This document shows, piece by piece, positions 18,600 through 39,184 of a DNA stretch of 64,000 bases. The position numbers and the translations under genes were made by a program. The DNA lies in the NCBI RefSeq assembly GCF_037943105.1, contig NZ_CP149803.1, positions 248,001 through 312,000 of the forward strand, in the 5' to 3' direction. Source of the stretch: Pseudomonas sp. TMP9. Its GTDB lineage: Bacteria; Pseudomonadota; Gammaproteobacteria; Pseudomonadales; Pseudomonadaceae. The first letter of the stretch is position 1; each line of letters starts with the position of its first letter. The notes under the pieces were generated by a model. The model saw nothing but the letters and a program-made list of their open reading frames with translations, was not told the origin of the DNA and made no database searches.

Positions 18600-19064
18600 T
18601 TAGGGCGTCATCGCGAAATCGTGCTGGCGCCACGCCTCGTAGACCGCCACTGCAACGGTATTTGACAAGTTGAGGCTGCGGCAGCCTTCACGCATCGGCA
18701 GGCGCAGGCACTGCTCAGGCGGCAGGCTGTCGCGAACCTCTTGCGGCAGCCCACGGCTTTCTGGACCAAAGAGAAAGGCGTCACCCGCTTGGTAGCTGAC
18801 TTGATGAAAGGCGTGCGAGCCTTTAGTGGTGAAGGCGAATACCCGTGGCTGGCCGAGGCTTTCCAGGCAGCTGGCCAGGTCAGGGTGGCGCTTGAGGGTG
18901 GCGTACTCGTGATAATCCAGGCCGGCGCGGCGCAGGCGCTTGTCATCCAGATCGAAGCCTAGAGGCTCGATCAGGTGCAAGTGGCAGCCGCTATTGGCGC
19001 AGAGCCTGATAATGTTGCCGGTATTAGGTGGTATTTCCGGTTGGAACAGGATGACGTGAAACAT
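18600..19064 (-). CDS. trmL: tRNA (cytidine/uridine-34-2'-O)-methyltransferase TrmL
   Basis: 154-residue SPOUT methyltransferase that 2'-O-methylates the wobble base of tRNA-Leu. Start MFHVILFQPEIPPNTGNIIRL; knot motifs FGPESRGLP and LPMREGCRSLNLSNTVAVAVYE bind S-adenosylmethionine. The frame is open further upstream but family homology starts at 19064. Its CAT start anticodon (19062-19064) shares two bases with the ATG of the divergent gene at 19063. Confidence 0.96.
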   Translation of the reverse strand: MFHVILFQPEIPPNTGNIIRLCANSGCHLHLIEPLGFDLDDKRLRRAGLDYHEYATLKRHPDLASCLESLGQPRVFAFTTKGSHAFHQVSYQAGDAFLFGPESRGLPQEVRDSLPPEQCLRLPMREGCRSLNLSNTVAVAVYEAWRQHDFAMTP

Positions 19065-19494
19065 GCGCGGCTCCGAGCTTGAAAGCGAGCAGTATCTTAC
19101 AGAACCGCGGCCTCGTCCGTGGATGCGGGTGATTGCTTCATTGGCGGTTTTTGGTTTTCTGATTGGCTTGATGGTGGGCCGGATGTTCCAGCCTGAGCCG
19201 CTGTTTCTTGAGCGCGTTGAGGTGGTGGAACAAGGCTTAGCGCTGTGGTTCAACAATGAGCCCCACCCACAGGAAGAGCATGTCGGCGGTGTGGTGAATC
19301 TGCGCTTGGAAAGTTTTGGCCGTCAGTTTAACGGCCAGCTCAACATCAACGGACGCCAGGCTAACTGGCGGTTTCAGCGCGAGCGCCGTGATCTGGTGTT
19401 GCGGGTAGTGGCGGCGCGTCCATTGCACGCCGAGTGGCATGCTGAGGAAGTGGACGGAAGCTGGCGGCTGATGGTTAACCTGTCGGAGCAATAA
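19063..19494 (+). CDS. Hypothetical single-pass membrane protein
   Basis: 143 residues; I do not recognise the family. One transmembrane helix at about 22-42 (RVIASLAVFGFLIGLMVGRMF) follows an arginine-rich cytoplasmic tail, and the remainder is a small beta-rich periplasmic domain (LWFNNEPHP, GVVNLRLESFGRQFNGQLNINGRQANWRFQ). A gene at this position next to trmL is, from memory, also present in PAO1 (PA5126). The start at 19063 overlaps the trmL start in the palindrome CATG; an internal ATG at 19123 just before the helix is an alternative that would remove the overlap. The stop codon overlaps the left 33-bp repeat. Confidence 0.65.
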   Translation: MRGSELESEQYLTEPRPRPWMRVIASLAVFGFLIGLMVGRMFQPEPLFLERVEVVEQGLALWFNNEPHPQEEHVGGVVNLRLESFGRQFNGQLNINGRQANWRFQRERRDLVLRVVAARPLHAEWHAEEVDGSWRLMVNLSEQ

Positions 19495-19525
19495 AGAGGG
19501 GATTCCCCGGCCTGCCAATACCAAG
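19493..19525 (-). repeat. Left copy of a 33-bp repeat bracketing the MSHA locus
   Basis: 33 bp beginning at the stop codon of the preceding gene and matching 37466-37498 at 30 of 33 positions in the same orientation. The differences are one C/T and one adjacent pair (AA/TG). The core GGGGATTCCC is palindromic. The right copy sits inside a candidate sRNA gene, so this copy may be a stranded distal module of that RNA. No clear promoter or terminator goes with it. Confidence 0.85.
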
Positions 19526-19962
19526 TCATTCTGACTGTAGGGATCGCTATTTTTGATGATTTAGCCGAGTACAGTGCAAGTGCTGTGTGTGATCTGCTAT
19601 CAATTGGGTCGAATAGCTATATTTTTTCCAGCGCAGTTGTAGCTGGCATCGATGGTGGCGCCAGAATCCTGCCGTAGACGCTTTGTGCTATATATTCCGT
19701 CAAAGATTAATGGCGTTTTAATGCCATCGGCTTGTGGTCTTTAATCGTTTGCGGTGCAAGCGCTTATCATCTGGCTCGAGTAGCGGCGGCTTAATCATGT
19801 GTTAGTAGCGTTTGGTGTTGGCGCAACGCGGATAATGCTAGCGGCGCTCTAGGGGATTCCTATGAGGGGCCGAACGAAATGGAGTATCGGTTAGGCTCAG
19901 GAGTAGACAATTATTCAGCCGTGAGCAGCTGGCAGTGTTGAGTTGGTTGGGGAGTCGCTAAG
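19526..19962. other. Leader region upstream of the MSHA operon
   Basis: 437 bp with no gene I can support and visibly richer in A+T than the flanking genes. It should hold the msh promoter, but no good sigma-70 pair or plus-strand sigma-54 site is visible. ATGGC-N8-GCCAT (19710-19727) forms a small hairpin. AGGGGATTCC, the core of the 33-bp repeat, recurs at about 19851-19860. Confidence 0.5.
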
Positions 19963-32724: not shown

Positions 32725-33133
32725 AAAAAGCGTGCCCGCCAAGGTCAGAGGTTTCGGGTTGGTGGCGGCGATGTTCGTGATGATTGTGATCAGCATGGTG
32801 GTCATCGCCATGTCACGCTTGTCGATTACTCAGCACGGCAGCAACAGCTTGGCTATTCAGCAGGCGCGCGCCTATCAGGCTGCTCGCGCCGGGTTGGAGT
32901 GGGGCATTAGCCGCGCCTATAAAACCGCCAGCTGTGCAGGGGGTGCCCCTAGCCAAGCGGGCAGTGCTTTAGCTGAGTTTTCAGTAAGCGTCGTCTGTAC
33001 GGCGAATAGCTACACGGATAACGAGGGTCGCCCAGTACAGATATTTCGTCTCACTGCGACGGCACAGAACGGCTCGCCAGGCGGTCGTTCTGACTATGCC
33101 TATCGGCAACTGACGGCGGTGGTGGAGCGATGA
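32705..33133 (+). CDS. mshP: MSHA minor pilin MshP
   Basis: 142 residues. Leader about 16 residues (MSIMRPEKSVPAKVRG), then FGLVAAMFVMIVISMVVIAM. The mature position 5 is Ala, so the Glu5 that normally pairs with the preceding pilin's N-terminus is missing, as in GspK/PilX-type tip subunits. QQARAYQAARAGLEWGISRAY is the PilX/MshP signature. ATG 32714 is a possible alternative start. The stop overlaps mshQ by 4 nt. Confidence 0.87.
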   Translation: MSIMRPEKSVPAKVRGFGLVAAMFVMIVISMVVIAMSRLSITQHGSNSLAIQQARAYQAARAGLEWGISRAYKTASCAGGAPSQAGSALAEFSVSVVCTANSYTDNEGRPVQIFRLTATAQNGSPGGRSDYAYRQLTAVVER

Positions 33134-36100
33134 AAAAGACGATACTGCGCGCGCTTAGCCTGTTGGCACTGCTGGGGTCGGCCAACGCATTGGCTGTCAC
33201 GTATACCTTTAATACCGCTGGCACACCGTTGGTCAGCGGTGCTCCCTCTATTTGTTCCGGTACTTGGAGTCGTTCGGGAACAACCTTTACGTGTAATGGG
33301 GTCCTCGCTACGGCATTGGGTGATGTGCTGGCGGTGTCAACCGCGACGACAATTAGCGTTGTCGCGCGCTCCCATACATTAATAGCAACCTTGGTCGGTG
33401 CAGCTGATCGCAACATCAACCTGACTGCCACCTCCAATCCCTTTAGCGCCACTAATAGCACCATCAATGGAACCGTTACGGCCACCTCAGGTGCTATCAG
33501 TTTGATTGGCGGTAGCGTGACCGGACAGGTACTCAGCAGTTGTTGTGACGTCATCACCAATGGCACGAATCTGCAAGGCGGGGCCCGCTCTAACTCCTCG
33601 GGTATCAGCATCACTGGCGGTACGATACAAGGTGGATTCTTCGCGGCGAACAACACGGCCACGTTCTCAGGCGTGACGATGACCGCTGGTACGATAAGTG
33701 GTGCCAGTACCGTGAATATTAGTGATAGCAGCCTAGGTAGCCTTAACACCCTTGTTTCCGTCAGCGCAGTCAGCGGTGCGATAACCCTGAACAACACCAA
33801 TGCTTACGGTAACTTCAACGCGCCAAGTTACTCGACCATTAACGTTAATAGCCCCAGCACGGTTACTGGTACTTGTCTGCCCAGCTCTACGCCAGCCAAC
33901 ACGTGTTCGTCAGGTCCTGTGCTCAGCTGGTTGTTGGACGAAACCACTTGGTCAGGCGCTGGCGGCGAGGTTAAGGACGCTACACCCAATGGCCTCGACG
34001 GAACAGTATTAGGCGGTGCAGTTACGGCCAATGCGAGCCCAGCCCTACCTGAAGTGAATGCTATGGGTACGTGCGGCTATGGCAGTTTTGCCAGCTCGGC
34101 CAGTCAGTACGTGCAGCGTGATGACACTAATCTATTGGATCTGCAGGGCAGCTTTACCATAGGCCTGTGGGTCAAACCGCGCAGTTTGCCTAGCACTGGC
34201 TTGATGACGCTGGTGTCAAAGGATGAAAACTACGAGTTTCATCTCAACCCCAATGGCACCATTAATTGGTGGTGGCAGACAACCAGCCCAAGCGCCACCC
34301 GGCAGTTCAACAGTACAACAGCTATAACTGCGGGGCAGTGGAGCCATGTACTGGTGCGCTTTGCTCCGGGTGACCAGCGTATCTACATCAACGGTAATCT
34401 GGCGGGGCAGGCCAACTTCGATGGTACGCCACTGGCCAACAGCGATCCTCTTCAGCTGGGCTCAGACCAGAATTTTGCCGGGCGTTACTTTGACGGCGAC
34501 ATGGATGAGTTGCGCATCTACAACATGGCGCTGAGCCCGGCGCAGATCAGCGTGCTGTATCAAGACCGGCATCAATGCGCGCTGCGGTTGCAGTGTTTCA
34601 GTGACAATTTTAATAACCCTACATTGGGTACAGACTGGGCGGTGGCCAGTCGAGGGAACACGGCCTTCACCCCGACGGTTAGCAATCAGCGCATGCGCCT
34701 GACCAGTAATCAGGGCAATGTCGCCACTGCGTCAACCCTGCAGCGTTTGTTCCCAGCCGCGGGTAACTTCATTCAAATAGAGTTCAAGCATTATGCCTAC
34801 GGCGGCAGTGGGGCTGACGGCATGGCTGTGGTGCTCTCTGATGCGTCAGTAGCACCCCAGCCTGGCGCCTTCGGTGGTCCGTTGGGCTACGGTACTCGGG
34901 GTAATGCGGCCAATCCTGGTTTTGCAGGCGGCTGGCTAGGCGTTGGTATTGATGAGTTCGGCAATTTTTCCACAGAGGGCGGCCTAGGCGGGCCGGGTCA
35001 ACGCATTGATTCAGTAGCAATCCGTGGTTCTAGTGTAAGTCCCTATACCGCCGGTTATCGCTATATCGCCGGCACCCCGGCCAACCTCAGTCCTGGCATT
35101 GATATATCAGACACTACCCCTGGTCCTGGGCACACCTACCGCATCACTGTTGATGGTCGTTTTACCAGCCAAGCGCTGGTCACAGTCGAACGTAATAGTG
35201 GCAGCGGTTTTGTTGTATTGCCCAACCTCAATGCAGTCAACGTGCTGGCGGCGGCTAATAGTCAGGCGGCGTTGCCCGCTGACTTTTACCTGTCACTGAC
35301 AGGCTCTACGGGGGGTTCGACCAACTTCCATGAGTTGGACGACCTGCAAATATGCGCCTCGACCATCAAGCCGCTTGCGCAGCAAATCGATCATTTTGAG
35401 TTCAGCTATGCAGGCTCAGCGCTGACCTGTAACCCGCAACCGGTGACCATACGCGCCTGCCTTAACAGCAGTTGCAGTACCCTGTTCACCGACCCAGTCA
35501 GCGTTACGCTCAATCCAGCGAGCTACTGGTCTGCCGTTGCGCCTGCCACCGGCAGTGGCAACGTCATCAACTTCAGCGGTGGCACTGCCCAGGCTCGATT
35601 GAGCATTACTACGCCCAGCACCGTTAGCTTAGGTGTGCAAACGTCGATACCTTCGACCAAGCCGCTCAGCGTACCGATATGCTCGACCACTGGCTGCCGG
35701 ATTACATACGCTGACAGCGGCTTGCTGCTGCAGGTGCCCAATATGCTTGCGGCCAAGCCTACTGCTGCGACCATCAGTGCGGTGCGCAAGTCAGACAATG
35801 CCCTGCAATGTGTGCCAGCCTTCGCTAACGTGACGCGCAACATAAACTTCACATCGGCCTACACCAACCCATCTACCGGCACCCAACCGGTGATGGTCAA
35901 TGGCAGTAATGTGCGCGGTACAGCTGTGAGCTTGAACCTCAACTTTGATGCCACAGGCACCGCGCCACTGACTGTGCGTTATGACGATGCGGGGCAGGTG
36001 ACGCTTAACGCCAGTTACGCGGGTAGCAACGCCAATGCGGACCCAGGATTGACCCTGACTGGTTCAGACTTGTTCGTCAGTAAACCCTATGGATTGTGCC

Positions 36101-37419
36101 TGCAGACCGACAGCATCTGCAGCAGTGCAGACGAAAACTGCGCGGTATTGCCCGGCATTCGGGCCGGCGACAGCTTCCCATTACGCGTTCGTGCGGTGGG
36201 CTGGCAAGCCGATGGAGAGGCGCTGACCGCCGCGCAGTTATGCACGGGCAATATCACCACGCCGAATTTCATCCATTCCGGCATCCTGCTGAGCAGTGCG
36301 GTGCAGGCTCCAGCTGGCGGCGCTAATGGCGCGATGTCGCCGCCAATTTATGCCCATGCGCTGGGCACTCAGACCACCTCGAATACGTCGATCTCGGAAG
36401 TGGGTGTGTTCACCATTATTGCCACCCCGCCAACCGGCGGCTACCTGGATGGTGAGACGGTCAGCGGCGGCAGCAGTGCCCTTGCGGGTCGCTTTATTCC
36501 TGCCTATCTGGGTGCTGTTGGTAGCGCCAGCCTTACTCCCAGTTGCGGCAGCGCCTTTAGCTATCAGGGCCAGCCGCTAAGCTTTGCCAGCACACTGCCA
36601 CCGAGCCTGGCCATCACCGGCTTCAACCGTGCGGGTGGCGTGACCACTAACTATGATCGCGGCGCCTTCTGGAAGTTAGCCGCCCCCGCTGTGGGCAGCT
36701 ATAGCTCGTTCACTGGCAAGGCGGCGCTTGATGCGCGCCTTGCCAGTCAGGGTGTGGCCACCCCTAGTACGACTGGCGCCGGCGATGGTGACGGCCGGCG
36801 CACTTACAGTTGGAGTGGTGAGCAACTGCTCTATCAGCCAGGGGCCTTGCTCAGCAGTGATGATTATCCATTTCTGACCAAGGTAAGGCAGGGCTTTACC
36901 GCAGCGATGCTGACCGACGCCGATGGTGCCTGCTATGGAAGCGGTAGCGGCTGCACCGATTACAGCTACGACTTCAGCGATAATCCGGGCAGCGAAGTGC
37001 GCCTGGGCCGCCTGCGTATCGGTAATGCCCATGGTTCCGAGCTGCAGAGCCCAAGCCTGCCGCTGGTGCTGGAAAGCTGGCAGAGCACCGCGGGGGGTAG
37101 TTTCCAGACCGAGGGGCTGGATACCTGCACCACCAGCAGCGTGTTGGGTGCGCCCGATCTCTTCAGCTACATCGGCAATTTGTCCGCTAATGAAACTACG
37201 CCGAGCCTAACCGCGCCTGTTGCCGGTTTAGGTCGCGTGCAGTTGAGTGCGCCGGGCAATGGCAACGATGGTTCGGTGCAGGTGCGCTTCCCCAGTGCGC
37301 CGAGCTGGCTGCACTATCCGTGGAATGGTGCTGCGCGCCAGGCGGCAGTTGGCTTAGCCAGCTTTGGTATCTACAAGGGCTCGCCGCCGTTGATATTCCG
37401 TCGAGAGATATACCGCTGA
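33130..37419 (+). CDS. mshQ: MSHA biogenesis protein MshQ, large secreted lectin-like protein
   Basis: 1429 residues. Signal peptide about 1-22 (ILRALSLLALLGSANALA). A Thr/Ser/Gly-rich repeat region (about 25-255) with beta-helix-like runs such as SGGTIQGGF; a LamG/concanavalin-type domain (about 262-482, ending YFDGDMDELRIYN); an L-type lectin-like jelly roll (about 488-742, DNFNNPTLGTDWAV ... HELDDLQICAS); then a C-terminal DUF6701-type module with many paired cysteines (about 745-1429). Probably surface-exposed, perhaps an adhesive tip. Last gene of the operon; terminator 5 bp after the stop. Confidence 0.87.
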   Translation: MKKTILRALSLLALLGSANALAVTYTFNTAGTPLVSGAPSICSGTWSRSGTTFTCNGVLATALGDVLAVSTATTISVVARSHTLIATLVGAADRNINLTATSNPFSATNSTINGTVTATSGAISLIGGSVTGQVLSSCCDVITNGTNLQGGARSNSSGISITGGTIQGGFFAANNTATFSGVTMTAGTISGASTVNISDSSLGSLNTLVSVSAVSGAITLNNTNAYGNFNAPSYSTINVNSPSTVTGTCLPSSTPANTCSSGPVLSWLLDETTWSGAGGEVKDATPNGLDGTVLGGAVTANASPALPEVNAMGTCGYGSFASSASQYVQRDDTNLLDLQGSFTIGLWVKPRSLPSTGLMTLVSKDENYEFHLNPNGTINWWWQTTSPSATRQFNSTTAITAGQWSHVLVRFAPGDQRIYINGNLAGQANFDGTPLANSDPLQLGSDQNFAGRYFDGDMDELRIYNMALSPAQISVLYQDRHQCALRLQCFSDNFNNPTLGTDWAVASRGNTAFTPTVSNQRMRLTSNQGNVATASTLQRLFPAAGNFIQIEFKHYAYGGSGADGMAVVLSDASVAPQPGAFGGPLGYGTRGNAANPGFAGGWLGVGIDEFGNFSTEGGLGGPGQRIDSVAIRGSSVSPYTAGYRYIAGTPANLSPGIDISDTTPGPGHTYRITVDGRFTSQALVTVERNSGSGFVVLPNLNAVNVLAAANSQAALPADFYLSLTGSTGGSTNFHELDDLQICASTIKPLAQQIDHFEFSYAGSALTCNPQPVTIRACLNSSCSTLFTDPVSVTLNPASYWSAVAPATGSGNVINFSGGTAQARLSITTPSTVSLGVQTSIPSTKPLSVPICSTTGCRITYADSGLLLQVPNMLAAKPTAATISAVRKSDNALQCVPAFANVTRNINFTSAYTNPSTGTQPVMVNGSNVRGTAVSLNLNFDATGTAPLTVRYDDAGQVTLNASYAGSNANADPGLTLTGSDLFVSKPYGLCLQTDSICSSADENCAVLPGIRAGDSFPLRVRAVGWQADGEALTAAQLCTGNITTPNFIHSGILLSSAVQAPAGGANGAMSPPIYAHALGTQTTSNTSISEVGVFTIIATPPTGGYLDGETVSGGSSALAGRFIPAYLGAVGSASLTPSCGSAFSYQGQPLSFASTLPPSLAITGFNRAGGVTTNYDRGAFWKLAAPAVGSYSSFTGKAALDARLASQGVATPSTTGAGDGDGRRTYSWSGEQLLYQPGALLSSDDYPFLTKVRQGFTAAMLTDADGACYGSGSGCTDYSYDFSDNPGSEVRLGRLRIGNAHGSELQSPSLPLVLESWQSTAGGSFQTEGLDTCTTSSVLGAPDLFSYIGNLSANETTPSLTAPVAGLGRVQLSAPGNGNDGSVQVRFPSAPSWLHYPWNGAARQAAVGLASFGIYKGSPPLIFRREIYR

Positions 37420-37423
37420 ACGC

Positions 37424-37453
37424 AAAAAGGCCACCTGACTAGGTGGCCTTTTT
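37424..37453. terminator. Bidirectional terminator of mshQ and of the minus-strand sRNA candidate
   Basis: Perfect 13-bp stem AAAAAGGCCACCT / AGGTGGCCTTTTT with a 4-nt loop GACT. U-runs occur on both strands, so it ends the msh operon on the plus strand and a transcript from the sigma-54 promoter at 37528-37543 on the minus strand. Confidence 0.93.
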
Positions 37454-37465
37454 GGCTGGGATGTA

Positions 37466-37498
37466 AAAGAGGGGATTCCCTGGCCTGCCTGTACCAAG
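37466..37498 (-). repeat. Right copy of the 33-bp repeat
   Basis: Matches 19493-19525 at 30 of 33 positions in the same orientation, 17,973 bp away. It lies inside the sRNA candidate just past the mshQ terminator. Outside the 33 bp the two copies do not align. This fits either a module repeated within one sRNA or a duplication made when the msh locus was inserted. Confidence 0.85.
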
Positions 37499-37527
37499 GT
37501 CCCCGAAACTGGGATTACCTGAGCCTA

Positions 37528-37543
37528 TGCAGGCTGTGTGCCA
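37528..37543 (-). promoter_or_regulatory. Sigma-54 promoter of the sRNA candidate
   Basis: Minus-strand TGGCACACAGCCTGCA: TGGCAC at -24 and CTGCA at -12 with the obligatory 10 bp between GG and GC. It matches 10 of 12 specified consensus positions. It faces away from ntrC, toward the 33-bp repeat and terminator. Confidence 0.75.
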
Positions 37544-37545
37544 AT

Positions 37546-37705
37546 CGCATTACATTGGCTACAGGCCACGTAAATACTGAGCCATAGGCTTTTAAAGGAG
37601 GTTTGCTATAAGCGGAAACCGGTTTCAGTGAACCGCTGCCGTGCACCCGATTAGATCTGGTGCATTGCCCTGGCGCATTTTCTGAGGGCTCCGCTCGGGA
37701 AAACG
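37546..37705. other. Remainder of the ntrC / msh intergenic region
   Basis: Apart from the NtrC-like sites it contains the 10-bp palindrome AAACCGGTTT (37616-37625) and an AAAGGAGG stretch near 37595 that is not followed by a usable start codon. No gene is supported. Confidence 0.4.
37629..37677 (-). promoter_or_regulatory. Pair of NtrC-like enhancer sites for the sRNA candidate
   Basis: Against TGCACC-N5-GGTGCA: TGAACCGCTGCCGTGCA (37629-37645, 10 of 12) and TGCATTGCCCTGGCGCA (37661-37677, 9 of 12). Their centres are 32 bp apart, about three helical turns, at roughly -119 and -151 from the predicted start. An overlapping TGCACC...GGTGCA pair with an 11-bp spacer (37642-37664) is also present. 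The spacing mirrors the glnA enhancers. Confidence 0.6.
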
Positions 37706-37727
37706 AAACGGGCCATAAGGCCCGTTT
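37706..37727 (-). terminator. Terminator of ntrBC
   Basis: Stem AAACGGGCC / GGCCCGTTT with a 4-nt loop ATAA, 24 bp after the ntrC stop. Read on the minus strand it is followed by a mixed T-rich stretch (CGTTTTCCC), so termination may be only partial. Confidence 0.75.
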
Positions 37728-37750
37728 CTTGGATCTGCAGAATGAGGTGC

Positions 37751-39184
37751 TTAATCGTCGTTATCCTCGTCATCGGCGCTGGCGACGTTCATACCCAGTT
37801 CTTTTATCTTGCGCGTTAGGGTATTGCGGCCCCAGCCCAGTAGCACGGCGGCGTCGCGGCGGCGGCCGGCGGTGTGCTTGAGGGCAGTTTCGATCATGAT
37901 TCGCTCGAAAGCTGGTACGGCAGTTTCCAGCAGGTTGGATTGCCCGCGTGCCAATGCTGAGTCGGCCCACTGACGCAGGCCTTGTTCCCAATTACTGACG
38001 GGGGTGCTTTCCTGGGGTTGGCTGAGCAGTTCGGGCGGCAGGTCACTGACATGCACTTCACGGCCTGAAGCCATGACGGTGATCCAGCGGCAGGTGTTTT
38101 CCAGCTGGCGCACGTTGCCGGGCCAAGGCAGGTGTTTGAGGTAGTCCTCGGTTTCGCTTTTCAGCAGTTTGGGCTCGACTGCCAGTTCCAGCGCCGCGCG
38201 GCTAAGGAAATGCCGGGCCAGCGTTGGGATGTCTTCGCGGCGATCAGACAGCCTTGGAATATGAATGCGGATGACGTTGAGGCGGTGGAACAGGTCTTCA
38301 CGGAACTTCCCAGCCTGTACCAGAGTTTCCAAGTTTTGGTGCGTGGCGGCGATGATGCGCACATCGACTTTGACTGGGGTATGGCCGCCAACCCGGTAGA
38401 ACTCACCATCCGCCAGCACGCGCAGCAGGCGGGTTTGTGTGTCGGCCGGCATATCGCCGATCTCATCAAGAAACAAGGTACCGCCGTCGGCTTGCTCGAA
38501 ACGCCCGCGGCGCTGGTTAGCTGCTCCGGTAAAGGCGCCTTTTTCGTGACCGAATAGCTCAGACTCCATCAGGTCCTTAGGGATCGCCGCCATATTCAGC
38601 GCGATAAACGGTGAGATCGCCCGCGGGCTGTGGCGGTGCAGGGCATGGGCCACCAGTTCTTTGCCGGTGCCGGATTCGCCGTTGATCAGCACGGTAATAT
38701 TGGAATGCGAAAGACGACCGATGGCGCGAAACACCTCCTGCATAGCCGGCGCTTCACCGATGATCTCTGGCGTGCGCGGTTGCTCGATCGGTACGCTCAA
38801 ACTCTGCTGTTCTTGGGCGTGCTGGTTGGCGCGCTTGACCAGGGAGACGGCTTCGTCAACATCAAAAGGTTTAGGCAGGTATTCAAATGCACCGCCTTGG
38901 TAGGAGGCCACGGCGCTGTCCAGATCGGAGTGCGCCGTCATGATGATCACTGGCAGGCGCGGGTGCATCTCACGAATGCATGCCAGCAACTCAAGACCGC
39001 TGGCGCCCGGCATGCGGATATCAGAAATGATCACATCAGGTTGCTGGCGGCTCAGGCGGCTGAGTACGCCATCCGCGCTGTCGAAGCTTTGGGTGGTCAT
39101 GCCTTCTTGTTGCAAGGCTTTTTCCAGTACCCAGCGGATGGAGCGATCGTCATCAACAATCCAGACGGTTTCACTGCGACTCAT
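37751..39184 (-). CDS. ntrC: Nitrogen regulation response regulator NtrC
   Basis: 477 residues, the standard length. Receiver domain with phospho-acceptor Asp55 in SDIRMPG; sigma-54-activating AAA+ domain with Walker A GESGTGKE, the GAFTGA sigma-54 contact loop and [13 protein letters not shown]-terminal Fis-type helix-turn-helix ([20 protein letters not shown]). It activates sigma-54 promoters under nitrogen limitation; candidate targets in this window are glnA and the nrsZ-like RNA. I place the start at MSRSETVW (39184); it overlaps the ntrB stop by 4 nt. Confidence 0.98.

Follow-up and report, generated by a model that had tools for sequence, protein, structure and literature searches.

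A one-module NrsZ homologue between ntrC and an mshQ-like gene in Pseudomonas sp. TMP9

In the window (the whole 64,000-nucleotide stretch of DNA analysed here), the gap between ntrC and an mshQ-like gene holds a homologue of the small RNA (sRNA) NrsZ that has a single module. We hold with good confidence that this gene is an NtrC/sigma-54-switched one-module NrsZ whose loop would pair with its targets, that it is probably no remnant, and that the one-module form is likely ancestral and the arrays later. In the proposed mechanism, phosphorylated NtrC on two upstream sites would act on sigma-54 RNA polymerase at the promoter, and the transcript would consist of a short leader, a single hairpin with a ACAGGCAG loop, a U-rich tail and a terminator common to the mshQ-like gene. 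Under nitrogen limitation the loop would pair with target mRNAs, as excerpts of published reviews describe for the first module of P. aeruginosa NrsZ on rhlA, and the arrays of P. aeruginosa and many other species would be later expansions of the one-module NrsZ.

Anatomy, identity and distribution

The original prediction described an NrsZ-like sRNA preceded by two NtrC-like 17-mers with centres 32 bp apart and by a sigma-54 promoter, extending over about 95 nt to a perfect 13-bp terminator, and all these elements stand in the sequence on the minus strand (Table 1). The best matches of NtrC in 27 other genomes are 89–94% identical to the protein of the window. The hairpin after ntrC (37705–37728) would part this gene from the sRNA gene, whose 5' end would lie at about 37517 judging from the promoter position. 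The palindromic terminator separating nrsZ from the convergent mshQ-like gene (the name mshQ is taken over from the prediction) is probably bidirectional. Small ORFs within the sRNA were looked for by eye. A simple scan listed nothing in this gap; it was limited to sigma-70 promoters, and its terminator rule did not catch these palindromes.

Table 1. Features of the nrsZ locus and of the far end of the msh locus (positions in the window)
Feature	Position	Strand	Basis and remarks
ntrC, 477-aa NtrC	37751..39184	-	ORF; upstream same-strand neighbour of nrsZ; stop at 37751
Terminator-like hairpin after ntrC	37705..37728	-	10-bp stem GAAACGGGCC/GGCCCGTTTC, then GTTTT; from sequence
NtrC-like site 1, TGCGCCAGGGCAATGCA	37661..37677	-	9/12 against consensus
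NtrC-like site 2, TGCACGGCAGCGGTTCA	37629..37645	-	10/12 against consensus; 32 bp centre to centre from site 1
Sigma-54 promoter TGGCACACAGCCTGCA	37528..37543	-	against consensus; similar site at 188/191 NrsZ loci
One-module NrsZ-type sRNA, about 95 nt	37424..37518	-	Rfam RF02695 match and fold
Module, 12-pair hairpin with 2-nt bulge	37471..37504	-	fold, module alignment, covariation
Loop ACAGGCAG, proposed pairing seed	37485..37492	-	conservation given in the text
U-rich module tail UCUUUUACA	37462..37470	-	ends ACA, the commonest ending of internal array modules
Palindromic 13-bp terminator	37424..37453	both/unstranded	perfect stem, 4-nt loop, A5...T5; from sequence
mshQ-like gene, convergent neighbour of nrsZ	33130..37419	+	DUF6701 and Laminin_G_3 domains; stop at 37419
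Decayed second NrsZ module	19492..19526	-	31/35 to module core; same orientation as nrsZ
143-aa ORF	19063..19494	+	no Pfam match; stop codon abuts the tail of the decayed module

With permissive filters, the Rfam NrsZ model (RF02695) matches the locus at 53.1 bits (E 1.6e-12; 37398–37515, minus strand), which agrees with the predicted identity, and this is its sole match in the single-contig genome (E up to 0.001), so that the covariance search places NrsZ at this site and nowhere else in the genome. The score misses the curated gathering cut-off of 76.9 bits because the first module of the model alone is present: the alignment follows this module almost base for base and deletes most of the remaining positions of the 236-position model. 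An Rfam search of the whole window at gathering thresholds gives one tRNA and no NrsZ. Matches to Phe_leader, RNAI and other Rfam families near the site score far under their cut-offs and were rejected. We also built a covariance model, R1, from 45 distinct first or only modules; with this model the window reaches 71.1 bits (E 1.6e-22), the window itself being one of the building rows.

Compared with the traits of the family, the window has one module of about 95 nt in place of several tandem modules. The first stem-loop with its ACAGGCAG loop is present, the sigma-54 site lies 52 bp before CAGGCAG (family range 50–76), two upstream NtrC-like sites form by sequence a 32-bp pair with a sum of 19/24, and the gene is directly downstream of ntrC, an adjacency that is not universal in the NrsZ family. 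On these sequence features the locus is a one-module NrsZ homologue and not a member of RF02695 by cut-off; membership is stated in this form because no target was found here.

RF02695 matches exist in 98 of 99 genus genomes, 67 of them above the cut-off, which about one third of genus members therefore miss. In the family, 127 of 198 genomes and 13 of 19 genera have matches, while in the order 8 of 194 sampled genomes do, all 8 within the window's family. The lone genus genome lacking NrsZ (G036) has no match by RF02695 or R1; a relative of the convergent ORF still lies 263 bp after its ntrC (L219). R1 detects further modules in genomes of genera g5, g6, g11 and g13. The four g5 loci read have one module each and a sigma-54 site of 10/11 at 51–52 bp; the g6 locus read has a site of 11/11 at 52 bp and the g11 locus one of 9/11 at 55 bp, and exact CAGGCAG is absent from the two g13 loci. 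Divergent one-module NrsZ genes below the Rfam cut-off are seen in g5 (L245 and L349–L352). R1 matches 21 of 293 order genomes (E up to 0.01), 13 inside the family and 8 outside; in the 6 of these 8 that were read the sigma-54 score never exceeds 8/11, so these were taken as chance.

Module number and ancestry

The original prediction called the sRNA truncated, and this part is not supported: one-module NrsZ occurs in several genera, and parsimony favours a single-module ancestor by 1–3 steps per node. In the genus sample of 98 loci, 30 have one module, 14 have two and 54 have three to seven. With further loci of the genus included, 43, 20, 43, 11, 6, 1 and 2 genomes have 1 to 7 modules, respectively; loci outside the genus sample were chosen, low-scoring genus matches being picked deliberately, so the fair one-module frequency is 30/98 only. 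One module is found at all 31 counted loci of nine genera (g2, g4, g6, g8, g10, g11, g14, g15 and g17), two of which come from a single g14 genome. Genus g9 has 1 to 5 modules, with one module in 1 of 23, and includes L099 (259 bits), which is probably P. aeruginosa; g12 has 3 to 5 (4 genomes), and one g16 locus falls outside the counting rule. A near relative of the window's clade carries a five-module array (L039 of G001; six by a looser count), with a period of 43 nt that is shorter than in the other arrays listed.

The direction of change was inferred from a codon tree of one gene, ntrC, with 160 tips, of which 66 were single, 86 multi and 8 unknown. At equal costs, parsimony counts 6 gains against 4 losses, and every node from the root to the window is single-module. 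When a gain costs twice a loss, the margin is 1 to 4 steps per node; at a cost ratio of 3 the root ties and inner nodes flip to multi. The node of the window's 12-tip clade remains single at all three gain:loss cost ratios (1, 2 and 3), all 11 other tips having one module, and every tip in the 8-tip clade of the window (bootstrap 100) is single. The parsimony result stays the same, apart from a firmer root, when G102, G113 and G165 are scored as single in line with R1; G102, which belongs to the window's family, is grouped with outgroups at the root of the tree. Relatives suggest that the short one-module form is the original NrsZ design and not a broken one.

The same tree bears on the main alternative, in which an ancestral array lost all but its first module, perhaps upon arrival of the msh locus. 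Losses to one module do occur (the 4 of equal-cost parsimony, e.g. G057 among relatives with 3–4 modules), at a gain:loss cost ratio of 3 inner nodes above the window's clade turn multi-module, the UUUUACA tail of the window's module is of the internal type, and the opposite end of the msh locus holds a relic of a module. Against this stand the one-module tips of the 12-tip clade with their stable node, and the occurrence of one module, a separate terminator and an mshQ neighbour together in four genera (g1, g10, g14 and g15). We regard truncation as unlikely. As for the statement that the sRNA "now" shares a terminator with mshQ, the palindromic terminator does lie between the two convergent genes, and "now" is not supported, given such loci in several genera.

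The relic (19492–19526) keeps its 3' half, and its 5' arm and loop are spoiled; no promoter was seen for it by eye. Scores to the module core in the window are 34 of 35 for nrsZ, 31 for the relic and 23 for the third place, and by covariance models alone the relic is weak (10.5 bits, E 2.2; 15 bits, E 0.74). It sits between the 143-aa ORF and mshI, and relatives of this ORF lie downstream of nrsZ at most of the family loci inspected. In G159 and G243, an intact nrsZ lies between a relative of the 143-aa ORF and mshI; near ntrC of these genomes, where mshQ follows 62 and 177 bp on, the best module match is at most 19/35. G111 has two intact nrsZ copies, one adjoining mshQ and one near trmL. The simplest account would be that two nrsZ copies of the same orientation once flanked the msh locus, and that one was lost differently in each lineage.

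Promoter, hairpin and terminators

Judged against the sigma-54 consensus and the NtrC consensus TGCACCN5GGTGCA, single motifs within the window are no more than chance: the sigma-54 pattern occurs once (0.44 expected), and NtrC-like 17-mers with at most 3 mismatches occur 54 times (57 expected). The above-chance signal is the combination of motifs plus its conservation. Among 191 NrsZ loci (including the window's own, and with 3 genomes counted twice), 188 have a sigma-54 site of 10 or 11 of 11 at 50–76 bp before CAGGCNG, with a mode of 52, versus 1 of 1332 CAGGCNG anchors outside NrsZ; the exceptions are L141, L150 and L153. The distance from this site to the ACAGGCAG-type loop of first modules is 48–75 bp, and the promoter of the window lies 51–52 bp ahead of the seed loop.

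At least one NtrC-like site of 9/12 or better lies within 200 bp upstream in 138 of 183 scored genomes, compared with 234 of 1637 control pieces. Pairs spaced by 20 bp and summing to at least 17 are found in 44% of 183 genomes and in 0.2% of 1695 control pieces. The pair of the window sums to 19, and 32-bp-spaced pairs with sums of at least 17 occur in 0.06% of 1695 control pieces; sums of 18–19 are also reached by 32-bp pairs in the relatives G074, G243 and G259 and by 31-bp pairs in G159, G278, G081 and G059. The sequence signs of the predicted NtrC/sigma-54 control, an NtrC-like pair and a sigma-54 site, are thus present. Genera g10 and g15 have weak pairs (best sums 13–16), as do the one-module genus members G027, G092, G013, G053, G191 and G290 (14–15), so NtrC control is no family-wide rule by sequence, and nrsZ of g10 and g15 may have a different activator. 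The g10 and g15 loci (L137–L144, L158–L168) have one module and a sound sigma-54 site along with their weak pairs, and at those compared ntrC is located elsewhere.

These weak pairs would fit a further alternative, in which the window gene is an NrsZ-type sigma-54 sRNA with a non-NtrC activator or another action, e.g. protein titration via repeated loops, and arrays of up to 7 equal loops would suit such a sponge. We think this improbable, somewhat more so than truncation: the pair of the window is strong by its control rate and lies beside ntrC, and a single loop, enough at 30 of 98 genus loci, fits a sponge badly.

For the 95-nt strand the predicted fold has an energy of -39.3 kcal/mol (z -3.88), and 0 of 200 shuffles are as good. 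The module alone is unexceptional, both in the window (z -1.60; 14 of 200 shuffles as good) and at L099 (118 of 200). A longer piece of L182 takes an alternative fold, and L351 (g5) folds into a 14-pair stem. Of 431 modules, 413 have the exact loop ACAGGCAG, an exactness partly built in because the module-counting rule admitted up to 2 loop mismatches. In the 45 distinct modules, 91.9% of cells pair, and changes on both sides are found in 5 of 12 pairs; the covariation score is 0.246 versus 0.189 shuffled, with 0 of 500 shuffles as high. Slid partners pair in 37–74% of cells, and with a slide of +3 the score is still 0.228; two inner pairs are not formed in 18 and 20 of the 45 rows. The covariation of the hairpin is modest.

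One-module loci have two kinds of end. Of 75 one-module loci, 45 have a UUU(U)AUU tail, 40 of them without a further terminator in the stretch searched, and 30 have another tail, 27 of them with a separate terminator (Fisher p 3e-12, relatedness ignored). These counts rest on a replacement for a first terminator finder, which missed many. At 36 of the 45 AUU-tailed loci the stop codon of a convergent ORF (at least 140 aa) lies inside the U-tail, so the stop codon may be a reason, besides termination, for retaining AUU; the sRNA and the convergent gene meet tail to tail, for example, at L182. In arrays, AUU tails are found in 87 of 108 last modules, 18 of 105 first modules and 6 of 136 middle modules; 105 of 109 arrays have no further terminator, and for 20 of those neither an AUU tail nor a terminator was found. 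All 21 mshQ-adjacent loci, the window included, have a separate terminator, and 20 of them (the window among them) combine it with a non-AUU tail and one with an AUU tail; by the search used, no mshQ neighbour was found among the 109 arrays. Each of the four g5 loci read has a module that ends in T7-8 and carries CAGGCAG in its loop. From these tails we infer that the module would be an intrinsic terminator in itself, with the seed in its loop.

That the region is a terminator only, a hairpin punctuating between ntrC and mshQ with no functional sRNA, is very unlikely, since ntrC has its own terminator-like hairpin, the almost invariant loop is needless for a terminator and the sigma-54 site is kept even at nrsZ loci far from ntrC, although the module is terminator-like (as in g5) and a palindromic terminator forms the second hairpin.

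Returning to the one-module NrsZ as a sigma-54-fired sRNA, we tentatively raise a wider possibility, which we would not call probable: NrsZ would be a sigma-54-fired terminator hairpin with a seed in its loop, arrays would be tandem copies with weakened tails, and two copies would once have flanked msh. Polymerase would read through the weakened internal U-tails (commonly UUUACA), while the last module usually keeps UUUUAUU; the short NrsZ species reported in P. aeruginosa could in part arise by premature termination and not by processing, and a copy number of 1–7 would set the dose. Should modules be leaky terminators in tandem, their number would be a dosage dial open to testing.

Targets and known systems

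For candidate targets, the window's own genome has 46 places at which CTGCCTGT precedes an ATG by no more than 30 nt, and 1 of 30 assessed passed the rule (ORF of at least 70 aa, short open frame upstream). The site at L268/L269 was rejected as a target: it has no Shine-Dalgarno-like box and its frame looks spurious. GGA-box seed sites in 59 genus genomes were also set aside, being by eye, among the matches listed, mainly recurring coding sequence. No seeds were found near the Shine-Dalgarno-preceded starts of 53 window ORFs.

Excerpts of two reviews (PMC8395346, PMC9308961) describe the 226-nt NrsZ of P. aeruginosa as transcribed from the ntrC–PA5126 gap in dependence on NtrB/C and RpoN, with the first 60 nt as the functional part, the motif ACAGGCAG and rhlA as target. 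NrsZ is also listed in an Hfq CLIP study, with a difference between conditions that is not significant. In the literature searched, this motif together with Pseudomonas led to one NrsZ review and the identifier RF02695 was not found; module-number variation was not found in the excerpts of the NrsZ literature, and Wenner et al. 2014 may discuss it. If the excerpted reviews hold, many species form a natural experiment, carrying just the unit reported as sufficient (the first 60 nt), and one-module NrsZ is a minimal RNA for study of the loop, free of processing and module redundancy. This suggests conserved targets older than rhamnolipid control.

The window sRNA is like NrsZ of P. aeruginosa PAO1 in its strand, its place downstream of ntrC, its sigma-54 promoter, its upstream NtrC-like sites and its ACAGGCAG hairpin loop, and it corresponds roughly to the 60-nt first part described as functional in the excerpts above. 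It differs in having one module in about 95 nt, in line with the prediction of a much shorter RNA, whereas the PAO1 sRNA has 226 nt and three modules; it also ends at a palindromic terminator beside mshQ and scores below the Rfam cut-off. CrcZ titrates Hfq/Crc via A-rich motifs and is set beside the window sRNA by description only. With CrcZ-type CbrB/sigma-54 sRNAs the window sRNA would share activation by a two-component regulator via sigma-54, CrcZ of Pseudomonas being described as activated by CbrA/B in an excerpt of PMC9308961. Another nitrogen-linked sRNA, compared here by description, is that of Enterobacteriaceae, which according to the part of the report consulted (eLife 2022, PMC9731577) is released from the glnA 3' UTR; this sRNA is freed from an mRNA, whereas the window sRNA would be transcribed from its own predicted promoter.
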